A DNA stretch of 49,911 nt from Haloferax elongans ATCC BAA-1513 (lineage in GTDB: Archaea > Halobacteriota > Halobacteria > Halobacteriales > Haloferacaceae): NCBI RefSeq assembly GCF_000336755.1, contig NZ_AOLK01000011.1, positions 48,531 through 98,441 of the forward strand. The letters are read 5' to 3'. The position numbers were made by a program, and so were the translations under genes. Below, in pieces: positions 1 through 49,911 of this stretch. Under the pieces are notes generated by a model, which was not told the origin of the DNA, made no database searches, and saw only the letters and a program-made list of their open reading frames with translations. Each line of letters starts with the position of its first letter. The first letter of the stretch is position 1.

Positions 1-194
1 AGAACAAGCAGTCGGGAATTGCGGACTTCATGTAGGTGTGGCCGTCGGTCCGGTGCAGCTTTTTCCTCCAGGTTTTCGAGTCGAGTGACGGAGTCACTCG
101 GGGAGAAAAAGTGGAGAACAAGCAGTCGGGAATTGCGGACTTCATGTAGGTGTGGCCGTCGGTCCGGTGCAGCTTTTTCCTCCAGGTTTTCGAG
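1..194. repeat. Tandem direct repeat, 114-bp period, cut by window edge
   Basis: An 80-bp sequence at 1-80 recurs without a mismatch at 115-194. The 34-bp spacer (81-114) holds a perfect hairpin: arms 82-89 and 93-100, loop GGA. The period is 114 bp, exactly 38 codons, so frames stay in register. On the minus strand two frames are open through both copies. One of them has a third-position GC bias like real haloarchaeal coding sequence inside the 80-mer; the other continues upstream to a possible GTG start at 341-339. The array starts at base 1 of the window, so more units may lie outside it. It may be a minisatellite or a fragment of a coding repeat. Confidence 0.85.
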
Positions 195-45907: not shown

Positions 45908-48900
45908 CTACGACCCTTTCTGACGACGAGTTCGAACGCGTGCGATAACCGCGAGCATGGCGACCGCTCCGACCGCGACGACCACGCCAAACCCGGGCGT
46001 GTCGGTCGCTGTCGCCGACTGCTTGGCTGTCGATTCCTCGGATGGTGCGCTCGATTCTGACTGTCCCGACTGTCCCGACTCGGTACTGTCCCCATCTGCT
46101 TGCGTCGAATTCGATGTCGAGGTTGGGGTCGCCGTCTCTGTTGCGGACTGGCCGTCGCTTCGAACGGTTACGGTCCCGGCGGAGACGCCATCGACGGAGA
46201 CGTTCGTCACGCCGCCGTGGTCTAGCGTCACGTTGACACTGACGGTCGCTCGCTCGCCCGCGTCGAGTGTCACATCGCGCGTCCCAACAACTGCTCCGTT
46301 CGCCGTCACCGCGACAGTCTTTTTCACGCCGAAGCCGCGTGGGTTCGAGAGCTCGGCCGACACCGTCAGCGGTTGGTCAGTCGAGACGCTCGGCCGAGAG
46401 AGGGTTGCGCCGTCGACCGAGAGCAGAGTGTCGGAGTCGACGCCGACGACGAATCGCGAGAGGCCGGGCGAGTTCGCTTGGAGGGTGTGTGTCCCACCGT
46501 CCCGGCGCTCGACGGCGGTCTCGACGCGATTCCACGTGCCGTCGTGGTACCGGTACAGTGAGAGTTCGTCCGCATCGACGCCGAGGCGCTCGAGTCGGTC
46601 TGCGTCGAGGTCGACCGTGAACGCGGCCGCGTCGATGGTCGAATCACTGATTTCGTGGTCGACGCGAAGCGACCCGAAGACGACGCCGTCGAACTGGGCT
46701 GTCGGGTCGTCGGCCGACGCGTCAGCAGCGGGGTTGTCAGTCGACGCGTCAGCACCGCTTCCGGCCGTCACGTCGACTACCTCGCCGGGGTCCGCCGCGT
46801 CGAGAAGAGGCGAGTCGCCCGCGACAGAGAGCGAGTAGTTGCCTTCGTGTGTCGTCGTGACCGAGAGTCGCGTCAGGTTCATCCCGTCGGTCGCGACCTC
46901 GCCGCCGAAGTCGACCGCGACTGGTTCGTTTCGTGCGGGGTTCCCGACCGAGACGTTCGTGGCGCGCCCGTCAGTCGTGGCGTTCTCGACGCGAACGACA
47001 GTCGCCGGTTGGGTGCGGTCGTCCGAACTGGAGCGCTCCGAATCTCCGTCGGTACTCCCGCCACCGCTCGACCCACCGTCGTCGGCCGATTCACTCCCGT
47101 CCGACCCGCCTGCACCGTCGCCGCTATCGTCTCCACCACTCCCACCGCCGTCGCCGCTCCCGCCACCACTGCTGCCATCGACTTCCACTGAGACGGTGTT
47201 AGACTGCACTACGCCGCCGTTTCCGAGGGTATCCTCGACGACGAGCGTCGCGGACTGTGTGCCGGCCGACGCACTCCCTCCGACACTCACAGTCGTCTCG
47301 TAGGTGTCGTCGCCGTCGCCGTCGGTCAAGTCGACCGGAGAGCCGACGCCGAAGTCCGAGAGGAACACCGTCACGGAATCGACGCTGGTCGTCGCGTCCG
47401 CGACGGTGACGCTGACTGTGACCGTATCGCCGACACCGACTGCGCCGTCACCGTCTGTCACGTCCGTGAGTGAGAGCCCGCTCGTCGCCGGTGGCGTCGT
47501 ATCGAGTGTCAGCGTGCCAGTCGTGGCGGTCTGTGCGGTCCCGCCGGAGTCGTTCGCCGTGACGCTGACAGATTGGCTGCCGTCGGTTTCGACGCCGGGT
47601 TCGTCGACGACGAGCGTCGCTTCGTAGGTCCCGTCGCTGTCACCGTCCGTGAGGGCGACCGCCGAGCCAGCGCCGAACGCGGAGGCGTCGGCGACGACGG
47701 ACGATACTGACGAGGTCGCATCCGAGACAGTCGCGGAGACGACGAGTTCGTCCCCGTCGCTCACGGTGCCATCGCTGTCTGTCGCGTCGGTTATCGAGAC
47801 GCCGGAGAGCGACGGCGCTGCGGTGTCGACGGTCAGTTGTGTCGTGGTGGCGGTCTGCGTGTTGCCCTGCCCGTCGGTCGCCTGAACCGTGACGTCGTGG
47901 GCACCGTCAGACGAGACACCGGCCTCGTCGACGGTAATGGTAGCCGTGTAGGTGTCGTCGTTGTCGGCGTCCGAGAGCGTGACCGTCGAGCCAGCGCCGA
48001 ACGCGGAGGCGTCGGCGACGACGGTCGAGACGGTCGTGAGGTCGGTTACATCGGCCGAGATAGTGACTGCGCTCCCGTTCGCAACGACGCCGTTTCCGTC
48101 AGTCGCGTCGGTGAGGATGGTGTTCGAGAGGCCCGGTGGTGTCGTGTCGAGGGTCGGTCCGCTGACTGCTTTCGTCCCTTCGTTGTCGGCGGTATCGACT
48201 GCAGCGAACGTGATGCTCTGTGCGCCGTCGGTCGTTCCCGACTCGGAGACGGTCACTGTCGCGCCGTACTCACCGTCGCCGTTGGGGTCCGAAAGCGAGA
48301 CTGCTGACCCGGCACCGAACGCCGAGGCGTCTGCGGTCACACCCGACAGCGCCGTGTCGTCGGCGACGGTCACGTTGAGCGTGAGTTGGTCGCCGCCGTC
48401 GACAGCGCCGTCCCCGTCGGTCGCGTCAGTCACGGAACTGTTCGAGAGGACCGGAGTGGTCGTGTCGAGCGTTATCTCTTTGGTCGTATCAGACCGGGTG
48501 TTCGACCCGGCGTCGGCGACGGTGACGCTGACAGTGTGATTCCCGTCTGCCGCGGCGTTCGCGCCGTCGACGGTGGCAGTCGCCTCGTAGGTATCGCCCG
48601 AGGAGTGACTCAGCGTGACTGCCGCGCCGAGTCCGAAGTCGGTCAGGTCGGCCGTCACCGTCCCGATGCTGCTTTCTCCGTCCGAGACGGTCGCCGTCAC
48701 CGTGAGGTCGTCGCCGTCGCCGACGACCCGGTCGCCGTCGTCGTCGAGGCTCACGTCCGAAATGGTCGGCTTCACGGTATCGACGGTCAGGCTCCCAGTT
48801 CCGGCCGTTTGGGTTCGCCCCTGCGCGTCCTCGGCGGCGACCGTGAGCGATTGCGACCCGAGTGTCGCGTTGCCGCCATCGACGGTGATGGTTGCCTCGT

Positions 48901-49911
48901 ATCGGTCGCCGCCGCTGTTGGTGAGAGTGACGGCCGACCCTGCACCGAACGCGGAGGCGTCGGCGGTGACGTTCTGAATCGTCGTCGCGTCGGTCACGTT
49001 CGCGGAGAGTGTCACGCTGTCGCCGTCGGCGACGACACCGTTTCCGTTGGTTGCGTCTGTCAGCGTCGCGTTCGTCACGACCGGCGCGTCCGTGTCGAGC
49101 GTGAGGTCGCCCGCAGACTGGTTTCGGTCGTTTCCGGCCGCGTCGGTCGCGCGCACGACGACCGAATGCGTGCCGTCTGCGGCCGCGCTGGCATCGTCGA
49201 CCGAGGCCGTCGTGTTGTAGGTGTCGCCCGTGACGTGTGTGAGTTCCACGACACCGGCACCGAACGCCGAGAGGTTCGCGGTGACGTTGACGACGCCGCT
49301 CGTCGCATCCGAGACGGTCGCTGTGACGCGAATCGACTCGCCGTCGCCGACGACGCCGTCACCGTTGGCGATGTCTTCGACGGTCGGCGAGAACGACCCG
49401 GGCCGGGCCGCATCGAGCGTGAGTTCGCCCGTCGTGACAGTCACGTCGTTCCCGTGGCCGTCGTCCGCAACGACTTCGACCGAGTGGTTTCCGTCTGCGG
49501 CTGCGCTGGCGTCGTCGACCGGGACGGTGGCGTCGTAGGTGTCGTCGCCGTCGCCGTCGGTGAGCGAGACGGCGGTTCCAGCGCCGAACGCCGAGATATT
49601 CGCCGTGACTGAACTGACCGCAGTCGCGTCGGTTACGTCCACGCTGACAGTCACGCTGTCGCCGTCGGTCACGAGTCGGTCGCCGTCGTCTGAGATGGTC
49701 GCGCCGGTCGCACTCGGTGCGGTCGTGTCGAGCGTCAGGTTTGCAGTCGTTGCGGACGCGCGCTTCGTCTTTTCGTCGGTCGCGGTGACTTCGACCGAGT
49801 GGTTTCCGTCTGCAGCTGCGCTGGCGTCGTCAACCGCGACGGTGGCGTCGTAGGTGTCGTCGCCGTCGCCGTCGGTGAGCGAGACGGCGGTTCCAGCGCC
49901 GAACGCCGAGA
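45908..49911 (-). CDS. Giant surface protein with Ig-like repeats and PGF-CTERM anchor (5' end outside window)
   Basis: The frame is open from base 49911 to the TAG at 45908-45910, so over 1,330 residues are visible and the N-terminus is missing. From the N-terminal side: at least eight Ig-like repeats of about 100-105 residues, each with TLDTTxP, DATDGDG and SAFGAGSAV-type motifs; a Gly/Ser/Asp-rich linker (about 47000-47175); a PGF-pre-PGF domain; a CARDB-like domain (about 46165-46430); a Ser/Thr-rich linker; and a final PGF motif (45989-45997) plus helix and basic tail, the archaeosortase ArtA signal for lipid anchoring. Function is probably adhesion or cell-wall contact. It converges with ftsY 39 bases away. 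Confidence 0.85.
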   Translation of the reverse strand, partial: SAFGAGTAVSLTDGDGDDTYDATVAVDDASAAADGNHSVEVTATDEKTKRASATTANLTLDTTAPSATGATISDDGDRLVTDGDSVTVSVDVTDATAVSSVTANISAFGAGTAVSLTDGDGDDTYDATVPVDDASAAADGNHSVEVVADDGHGNDVTVTTGELTLDAARPGSFSPTVEDIANGDGVVGDGESIRVTATVSDATSGVVNVTANLSAFGAGVVELTHVTGDTYNTTASVDDASAAADGTHSVVVRATDAAGNDRNQSAGDLTLDTDAPVVTNATLTDATNGNGVVADGDSVTLSANVTDATTIQNVTADASAFGAGSAVTLTNSGGDRYEATITVDGGNATLGSQSLTVAAEDAQGRTQTAGTGSLTVDTVKPTISDVSLDDDGDRVVGDGDDLTVTATVSDGESSIGTVTADLTDFGLGAAVTLSHSSGDTYEATATVDGANAAADGNHTVSVTVADAGSNTRSDTTKEITLDTTTPVLSNSSVTDATDGDGAVDGGDQLTLNVTVADDTALSGVTADASAFGAGSAVSLSDPNGDGEYGATVTVSESGTTDGAQSITFAAVDTADNEGTKAVSGPTLDTTPPGLSNTILTDATDGNGVVANGSAVTISADVTDLTTVSTVVADASAFGAGSTVTLSDADNDDTYTATITVDEAGVSSDGAHDVTVQATDGQGNTQTATTTQLTVDTAAPSLSGVSITDATDSDGTVSDGDELVVSATVSDATSSVSSVVADASAFGAGSAVALTDGDSDGTYEATLVVDEPGVETDGSQSVSVTANDSGGTAQTATTGTLTLDTTPPATSGLSLTDVTDGDGAVGVGDTVTVSVTVADATTSVDSVTVFLSDFGVGSPVDLTDGDGDDTYETTVSVGGSASAGTQSATLVVEDTLGNGGVVQSNTVSVEVDGSSGGGSGDGGGSGGDDSGDGAGGSDGSESADDGGSSGGGSTDGDSERSSSDDRTQPATVVRVENATTDGRATNVSVGNPARNEPVAVDFGGEVATDGMNLTRLSVTTTHEGNYSLSVAGDSPLLDAADPGEVVDVTAGSGADASTDNPAADASADDPTAQFDGVVFGSLRVDHEISDSTIDAAAFTVDLDADRLERLGVDADELSLYRYHDGTWNRVETAVERRDGGTHTLQANSPGLSRFVVGVDSDTLLSVDGATLSRPSVSTDQPLTVSAELSNPRGFGVKKTVAVTANGAVVGTRDVTLDAGERATVSVNVTLDHGGVTNVSVDGVSAGTVTVRSDGQSATETATPTSTSNSTQADGDSTESGQSGQSESSAPSEESTAKQSATATDTPGFGVVVAVGAVAMLAVIARVRTRRQKGS
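47180..49911 (-). repeat. Array of Ig-like repeats in the surface protein
   Basis: Repeat units of about 95-105 codons share TLDTTxP, DATDGDG, SAFGAG and DGxQSV motifs. At the edge, 49472-49596 matches 49787-49911 at 122 of 125 bases, an offset of 315 bases (105 codons). The nearly identical units suggest recent duplication or gene conversion, which would also hamper assembly. Confidence 0.8.

Follow-up and report, generated by a model that had tools for sequence, protein, structure and literature searches.

Within the 49,911-nt stretch of the Haloferax elongans ATCC BAA-1513 genome analyzed here (the window; contig C11, positions 48531–98441), a gene for a giant surface protein carries two adjacent Ig-like units, units 5 and 6, that are nearly identical over one half and strongly diverged over the other. 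We consider it highly probable that this pattern reflects recurrent gene conversion over half a unit with the number of units kept, that the resulting repeat broke the assembly and gave the deposited frame 25 spurious codons, and that the protein serves as a surface stalk. In this explanation, copying between sister repeats would have overwritten about 125 bp of units 5 and 6 repeatedly, in separate lineages, leaving intact the rest of the units, their order and their number (13, as compared with the sister species). In H. elongans, the conversion would have left a 74-bp exact repeat that 85-nt short reads could barely span, so that the contig broke there. The contig ends would then have been scaffolded with a lone N and their common 74 bp left unmerged, a join that would have put the repeat at the edge of the window and added the 25 codons.

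Architecture and predicted fold of the giant protein

The portion of the giant gene in the window lies on the minus strand at 45908–49911, with the stop at 45908 and the start about 2.25 kb beyond the window. Its translation, the comparison of units with one another and the unit spacing of 105 codons delimit the C-terminal part of unit 5 (49730–49911), followed by unit 6 (49418–49729), unit 7 (49097–49414), unit 8 (48782–49096), unit 9 (48467–48781), unit 10 (48149–48466), unit 11 (47828–48148), unit 12 (47504–47827) and unit 13 (47180–47503), the last of the array. Downstream of the array, also on the minus strand, are a Gly/Ser/Asp-rich linker (47020–47179), a PGF-pre-PGF domain (46445–46645; residues 1089–1155 of the window translation; TIGR04213, 31.6 bits against a cut-off of 28) and a PGF-CTERM-like sorting signal (45932–46012) with a TPGF motif, a hydrophobic stretch and a basic tail. 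The part of the protein encoded in the window also matches Pfam Big_3_3 (34.5 bits against a gathering score of 27) and Big_13.

Modelling of unit 12 on the basis of a 65-sequence alignment yielded an all-beta sandwich (mean pLDDT 96.1), which VIA-align places at Z scores of 8–10 to Ig-like, PKD, Fn3 and CBM beta-sandwiches. A Foldseek search of the modelled unit against the PDB returned no match at an E value of 0.001 or better; the adhesin SiiE was among the weaker hits. The predicted structure fixes the fold class only, an Ig-like beta-sandwich.

The layout would be that of a stalk, in which a signal peptide is followed by the array of Ig-like beta-sandwiches, the Ser/Gly linker, the PGF-pre-PGF domain and a C-terminal anchor of the archaeosortase type; the signal peptide and the anchoring at the surface are predicted features. 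To judge from the sequence, the giant protein most probably acts as a surface stalk. A part in adhesion is plausible, as a guess from the architecture only, and no adhesive domain was recognized in a scan of the N-terminal part of the protein. The genome of H. elongans contains two more frames for giant surface proteins, of 2275 codons (L044; C18:38000–52000) and 1583 codons (L052; C11:186000–200000), both weakly similar to parts of the giant protein; the 14-kb L044 stretch also has two lone Ns.

Orthologues, unit number and genomic locus

Our comparison set comprised one genome per species, and orthologues of the giant gene are present in three Haloferax species only. The orthologue in H. larsenii JCM 13917 shares 90% amino acid identity over a 2061-codon frame, and that in Haloferax G010 shares 74% identity with a length of 2279 codons; neither frame contains an N. 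The 13 units match one to one and in the same order across H. elongans, H. larsenii and G010. By a unit profile, H. larsenii has 13 units; G010 has 14, with an additional unit and an additional domain ahead of the linker. The number of units ranges from 9 to 15 in five homologues that belong to other genera of the family, indicating that it does shift over longer timescales, and remoter homologues have fewer recognizable units.

In all three species, the giant gene (L009:439–8614) lies between pfdA-ftsY on one side and a D-2-hydroxyacid dehydrogenase gene and srp54 on the other. By comparison, in 11 other Haloferax genomes (empty sites in L075–L085), the dehydrogenase gene directly follows ftsY at a distance of about 0.7 kb and the giant gene is absent from the site. 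A twelfth genome, G012, was left out, its ftsY lying at a contig end. This presence pattern corresponds to a lineage-specific gain or loss within the SRP gene neighbourhood.

Units 5 and 6 share a near-identical half-unit patch

The initial annotation had described a 125-base segment repeated with three mismatches, and our analysis confirms this observation: positions 49472–49596 match positions 49787–49911 at a lag of 315 nt, or exactly 105 codons. The two copies belong to units 6 and 5, respectively, of the 13-unit array. Each contains a 74-nt exact repeat (49523–49596 in unit 6 and 49838–49911 in unit 5) that is maximal, as the bordering bases differ (on the plus strand, G/C before and T/G after). 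The further remark that other units are more diverged is borne out as well, since units 5 and 6 are 99% identical over a 75-nt patch at which every other pair of units in H. elongans reaches at most 77%. The patch encodes a conserved SAFGAG...DGDGDDTY segment and, by sequence position in the model, corresponds to residues 49–90 of the modelled unit, that is, its C-terminal half.

The same pair stands out in the other two species. Over the 75-nt patch, units 5 and 6 are 89% identical in H. larsenii and 99% in G010, compared with at most 77% and 85%, respectively, for all other unit pairs. By comparison, the 63 codons that precede the patch show just 50–53% identity between units 5 and 6 but 77–91% identity between either unit and its own orthologue; at the amino acid level, these flanks share 33% identity mutually and 89% and 87% with their H. 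larsenii orthologues. The initial annotation had offered recent duplication or conversion as the origin of the repeat, and these values bear on the first of the two. A recent tandem duplication of the entire 315-bp unit, which would alter the length of the protein, fits a lag of exactly one unit between adjacent copies, and the assembly join that sits at the repeat (see below) could conceal identical units. However, such an event would have made the whole 315 bp alike rather than one patch, whereas the two flanks agree with each other at only 50% of positions and with the H. larsenii orthologue of the respective unit at about 90%. The number of units, moreover, is the same in H. larsenii, and all 13 are common to G010. 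We therefore regard duplication as very unlikely and retain the conversion half of the proposal, which agrees with identity confined to a patch that is concerted in two lineages.

Site patterns favour conversion over constraint

Over 126 nt of the patch, units 5 and 6 are 95.2% identical within H. elongans and 93.7% identical within G010, compared with 82.5% between the two species. Consistent with these values, the site patterns of H. elongans against G010 comprise 16 concerted and 2 orthologous sites in the patch and 3 concerted and 51 orthologous sites in the flank (Fisher p = 3e-11). Between H. elongans and H. larsenii, just 2 concerted sites separate the species in the patch. Thus, within-species similarity of the patch exceeds between-species similarity, the flanks follow orthology and the copy number is kept, which is the pattern of concerted evolution.

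Strong selection on the patch, whether purifying or convergent, for instance on a functional loop of the Ig-like unit, could in principle keep units 5 and 6 alike with no conversion at all. The conserved segment encoded by the patch and a strong codon bias, which raises identity, speak for such a reading. By comparison, at four-fold degenerate sites of the patch, units 5 and 6 agree at 17 of 17 positions in H. elongans and at a fraction of 0.94 in G010, against only 0.69–0.75 between H. elongans and G010, so that constraint at the protein level alone is insufficient. In addition, the H. elongans and G010 lineages retain different patch sequences, and other units that share the motif reach at most 77–85% identity. 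Selection without conversion is accordingly a highly improbable explanation of the patch.

Gene conversion is the best explanation of the data, given two independently homogenized versions of the half-unit, diverged flanks and an unchanged number of units; as the molecular mechanism it is deduced from these patterns. The direction of conversion between units 5 and 6 shows a mosaic pattern. A scan of the whole array revealed a signal like that of units 5 and 6 for units 11 and 12 (47504–48148), which share a short concerted tract with concerted-to-orthologous ratios, in the best 20-codon window, of 7:1 for H. elongans against G010 and 5:0 for H. larsenii against G010; weak signals were found for units 4/8 and 4/12. 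With three species bearing an orthologue, few independent conversion events can be counted. In a 9-unit homologue from another genus (L109, genome G029), we observed four long self-matches at the DNA level that link different units, with scores of 71–82, and these matches suggest that conversion among units may be general in the giant-protein family. As gene conversion rather than unit duplication is involved, the protein length would be unchanged, contrary to the initial expectation that the event would change the length of the surface protein, and H. larsenii likewise has 13 units.

The end of the window is an assembly join

The near-identical units had initially been placed at the edge of the giant surface protein. 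The protein, however, continues past the end of the window (49911), as the frame runs on for about 760 codons upstream. A lone N follows the window (C11:98442; L009:4443), bordered on either side by one and the same 74-nt sequence. This sequence is also the maximal exact repeat between units 5 and 6 and is present a third time, in unit 6. An overlap of contig ends that exactly equals a maximal repeat is the signature of a short-read break. The 74 nt beside the N thus point to a scaffold join, left unmerged, at a repeat beyond the resolving power of short reads, and the sequence indicates that the edge of the window is an assembly join rather than a biological boundary. Translation across the join gives SAFGAGTAVSLTDGDGDDTYDATV-X-SAFGAGTAVSLTDGDGDDTYDATV in the deposited protein. 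These 25 extra codons at the N are the sole large difference in the array between H. elongans and H. larsenii, and both orthologues lack them. We rejected the idea that the 25-codon tandem is a genuine short unit, as it corresponds to the contig overlap and to the maximal exact repeat, and neither orthologue has it.

Published Haloferax drafts of the series to which the H. elongans genome presumably belongs were produced from 85-nt paired reads with the A5 pipeline (PMC4230888), which combines IDBA de Bruijn contigs with SSPACE scaffolding (PMC3441570). The same read type and pipeline were presumably used for H. elongans. All N runs seen in its genome are single Ns, and the length of an N run is therefore uninformative on gap size; an estimate of the gap from this length was dropped for the same reason. 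Further lone-N joins with exact end overlaps occur in H. elongans (80 nt, at C11:48530) and in Haloferax G011 (83 and 69 nt), while other lone Ns have no end overlap. The site at C11:48530 adjoins the other edge of the window, where the 80-nt sequence is exactly duplicated across the N and has a third copy at window positions 115–194; it is probably an unmerged join of the same sort. This site (window 1–194; C11:48450–48529; L055:8450–8724) corresponds to the 3' end of an apparent intein-bearing gene for the DNA polymerase II large subunit.

The position of the unit 5 copy at a contig end beside a lone N, and the recurrence of such repeated ends elsewhere, might suggest that the near-identity is itself an assembly artefact, in which unit 6 sequence was wrongly joined to the contig end of unit 5. 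However, the contig interior holds both the three mismatches and the 51 nt outside the exact repeat, of which 48 still match. A break at a repeat needs an exact repeat in the reads, and G010 has the same outlier pair without any N. We regard an artefact of this kind as extremely unlikely. A mixed alternative holds that half-domain conversion between adjacent Ig-like units of haloarchaeal giant surface proteins is ongoing at a fixed hot pair (units 5 and 6, and also 11 and 12), that further identical units of 315 bp lie concealed at the join and that populations vary both in patch sequence and in unit number; this combination appears unlikely to us.

Discussion

Recurrent half-unit conversion with the unit number kept resembles the inter-repeat gene conversion of prokaryotes (reviewed in PMC8223754) in its short homogenized tract, diverged flanks and lineage-specific fixed sequences. 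It differs in that the exchange would involve domains within a single gene and cover half of a domain. In H. volcanii, gene conversion between genome copies has been shown to be highly efficient, and its tracts, at kilobases in length, far exceed the 125-bp patch of H. elongans (PMC8223754), although tracts between units would be limited by the divergence of their flanks.

The giant protein also invites comparison with the Periscope Proteins SasG, Rib and Sgo_0707 (PMC8201768), with which it shares tandem folded domains that would form a surface stalk with a C-terminal anchor, the latter being predicted for the giant protein. Periscope Proteins have highly identical repeats, with adjacent SHIRT domains sharing 82–100% amino acid identity, and their unit number varies among strains (PMC8201768). 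By comparison, all pairs of units in the giant protein but one are strongly diverged, the near-identity of units 5 and 6 is restricted to one patch at which other pairs do not exceed 77% nucleotide identity, and the number of units is the same in the sister species.

Haloarchaeal PGF-pre-PGF/PGF-CTERM proteins are processed by archaeosortase A. The giant protein is similar to this group in its above-cut-off TIGR04213 domain, its TPGF motif, hydrophobic stretch and basic tail, and the presence of an archaeosortase in the genome (TIGR04125, 341.9 bits against a cut-off of 75), whereas its sorting signal scores 18.2 bits with TIGR04126, below the cut-off of 24.5. The units likewise resemble bacterial Ig-like domains (Big_3_3 and Big_13, as in the SiiE adhesin) in their Pfam matches, the beta-sandwich model and the occurrence of SiiE among the Foldseek hits, and differ from them in lacking a Foldseek match at an E value of 0.001 or better.

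Our analysis bears on how near-identical repeats at the edge of a window or contig are read, in that the repeat itself causes the break. Short reads do not give the number of repeats at such joins, and the deposited protein bears a spurious 25-codon tandem. The conversion reading predicts homogenization of sequence rather than a change in length, and the three species together make a clear example of concerted evolution acting inside the domains of an archaeal surface protein, within a genus whose gene conversion is highly active.
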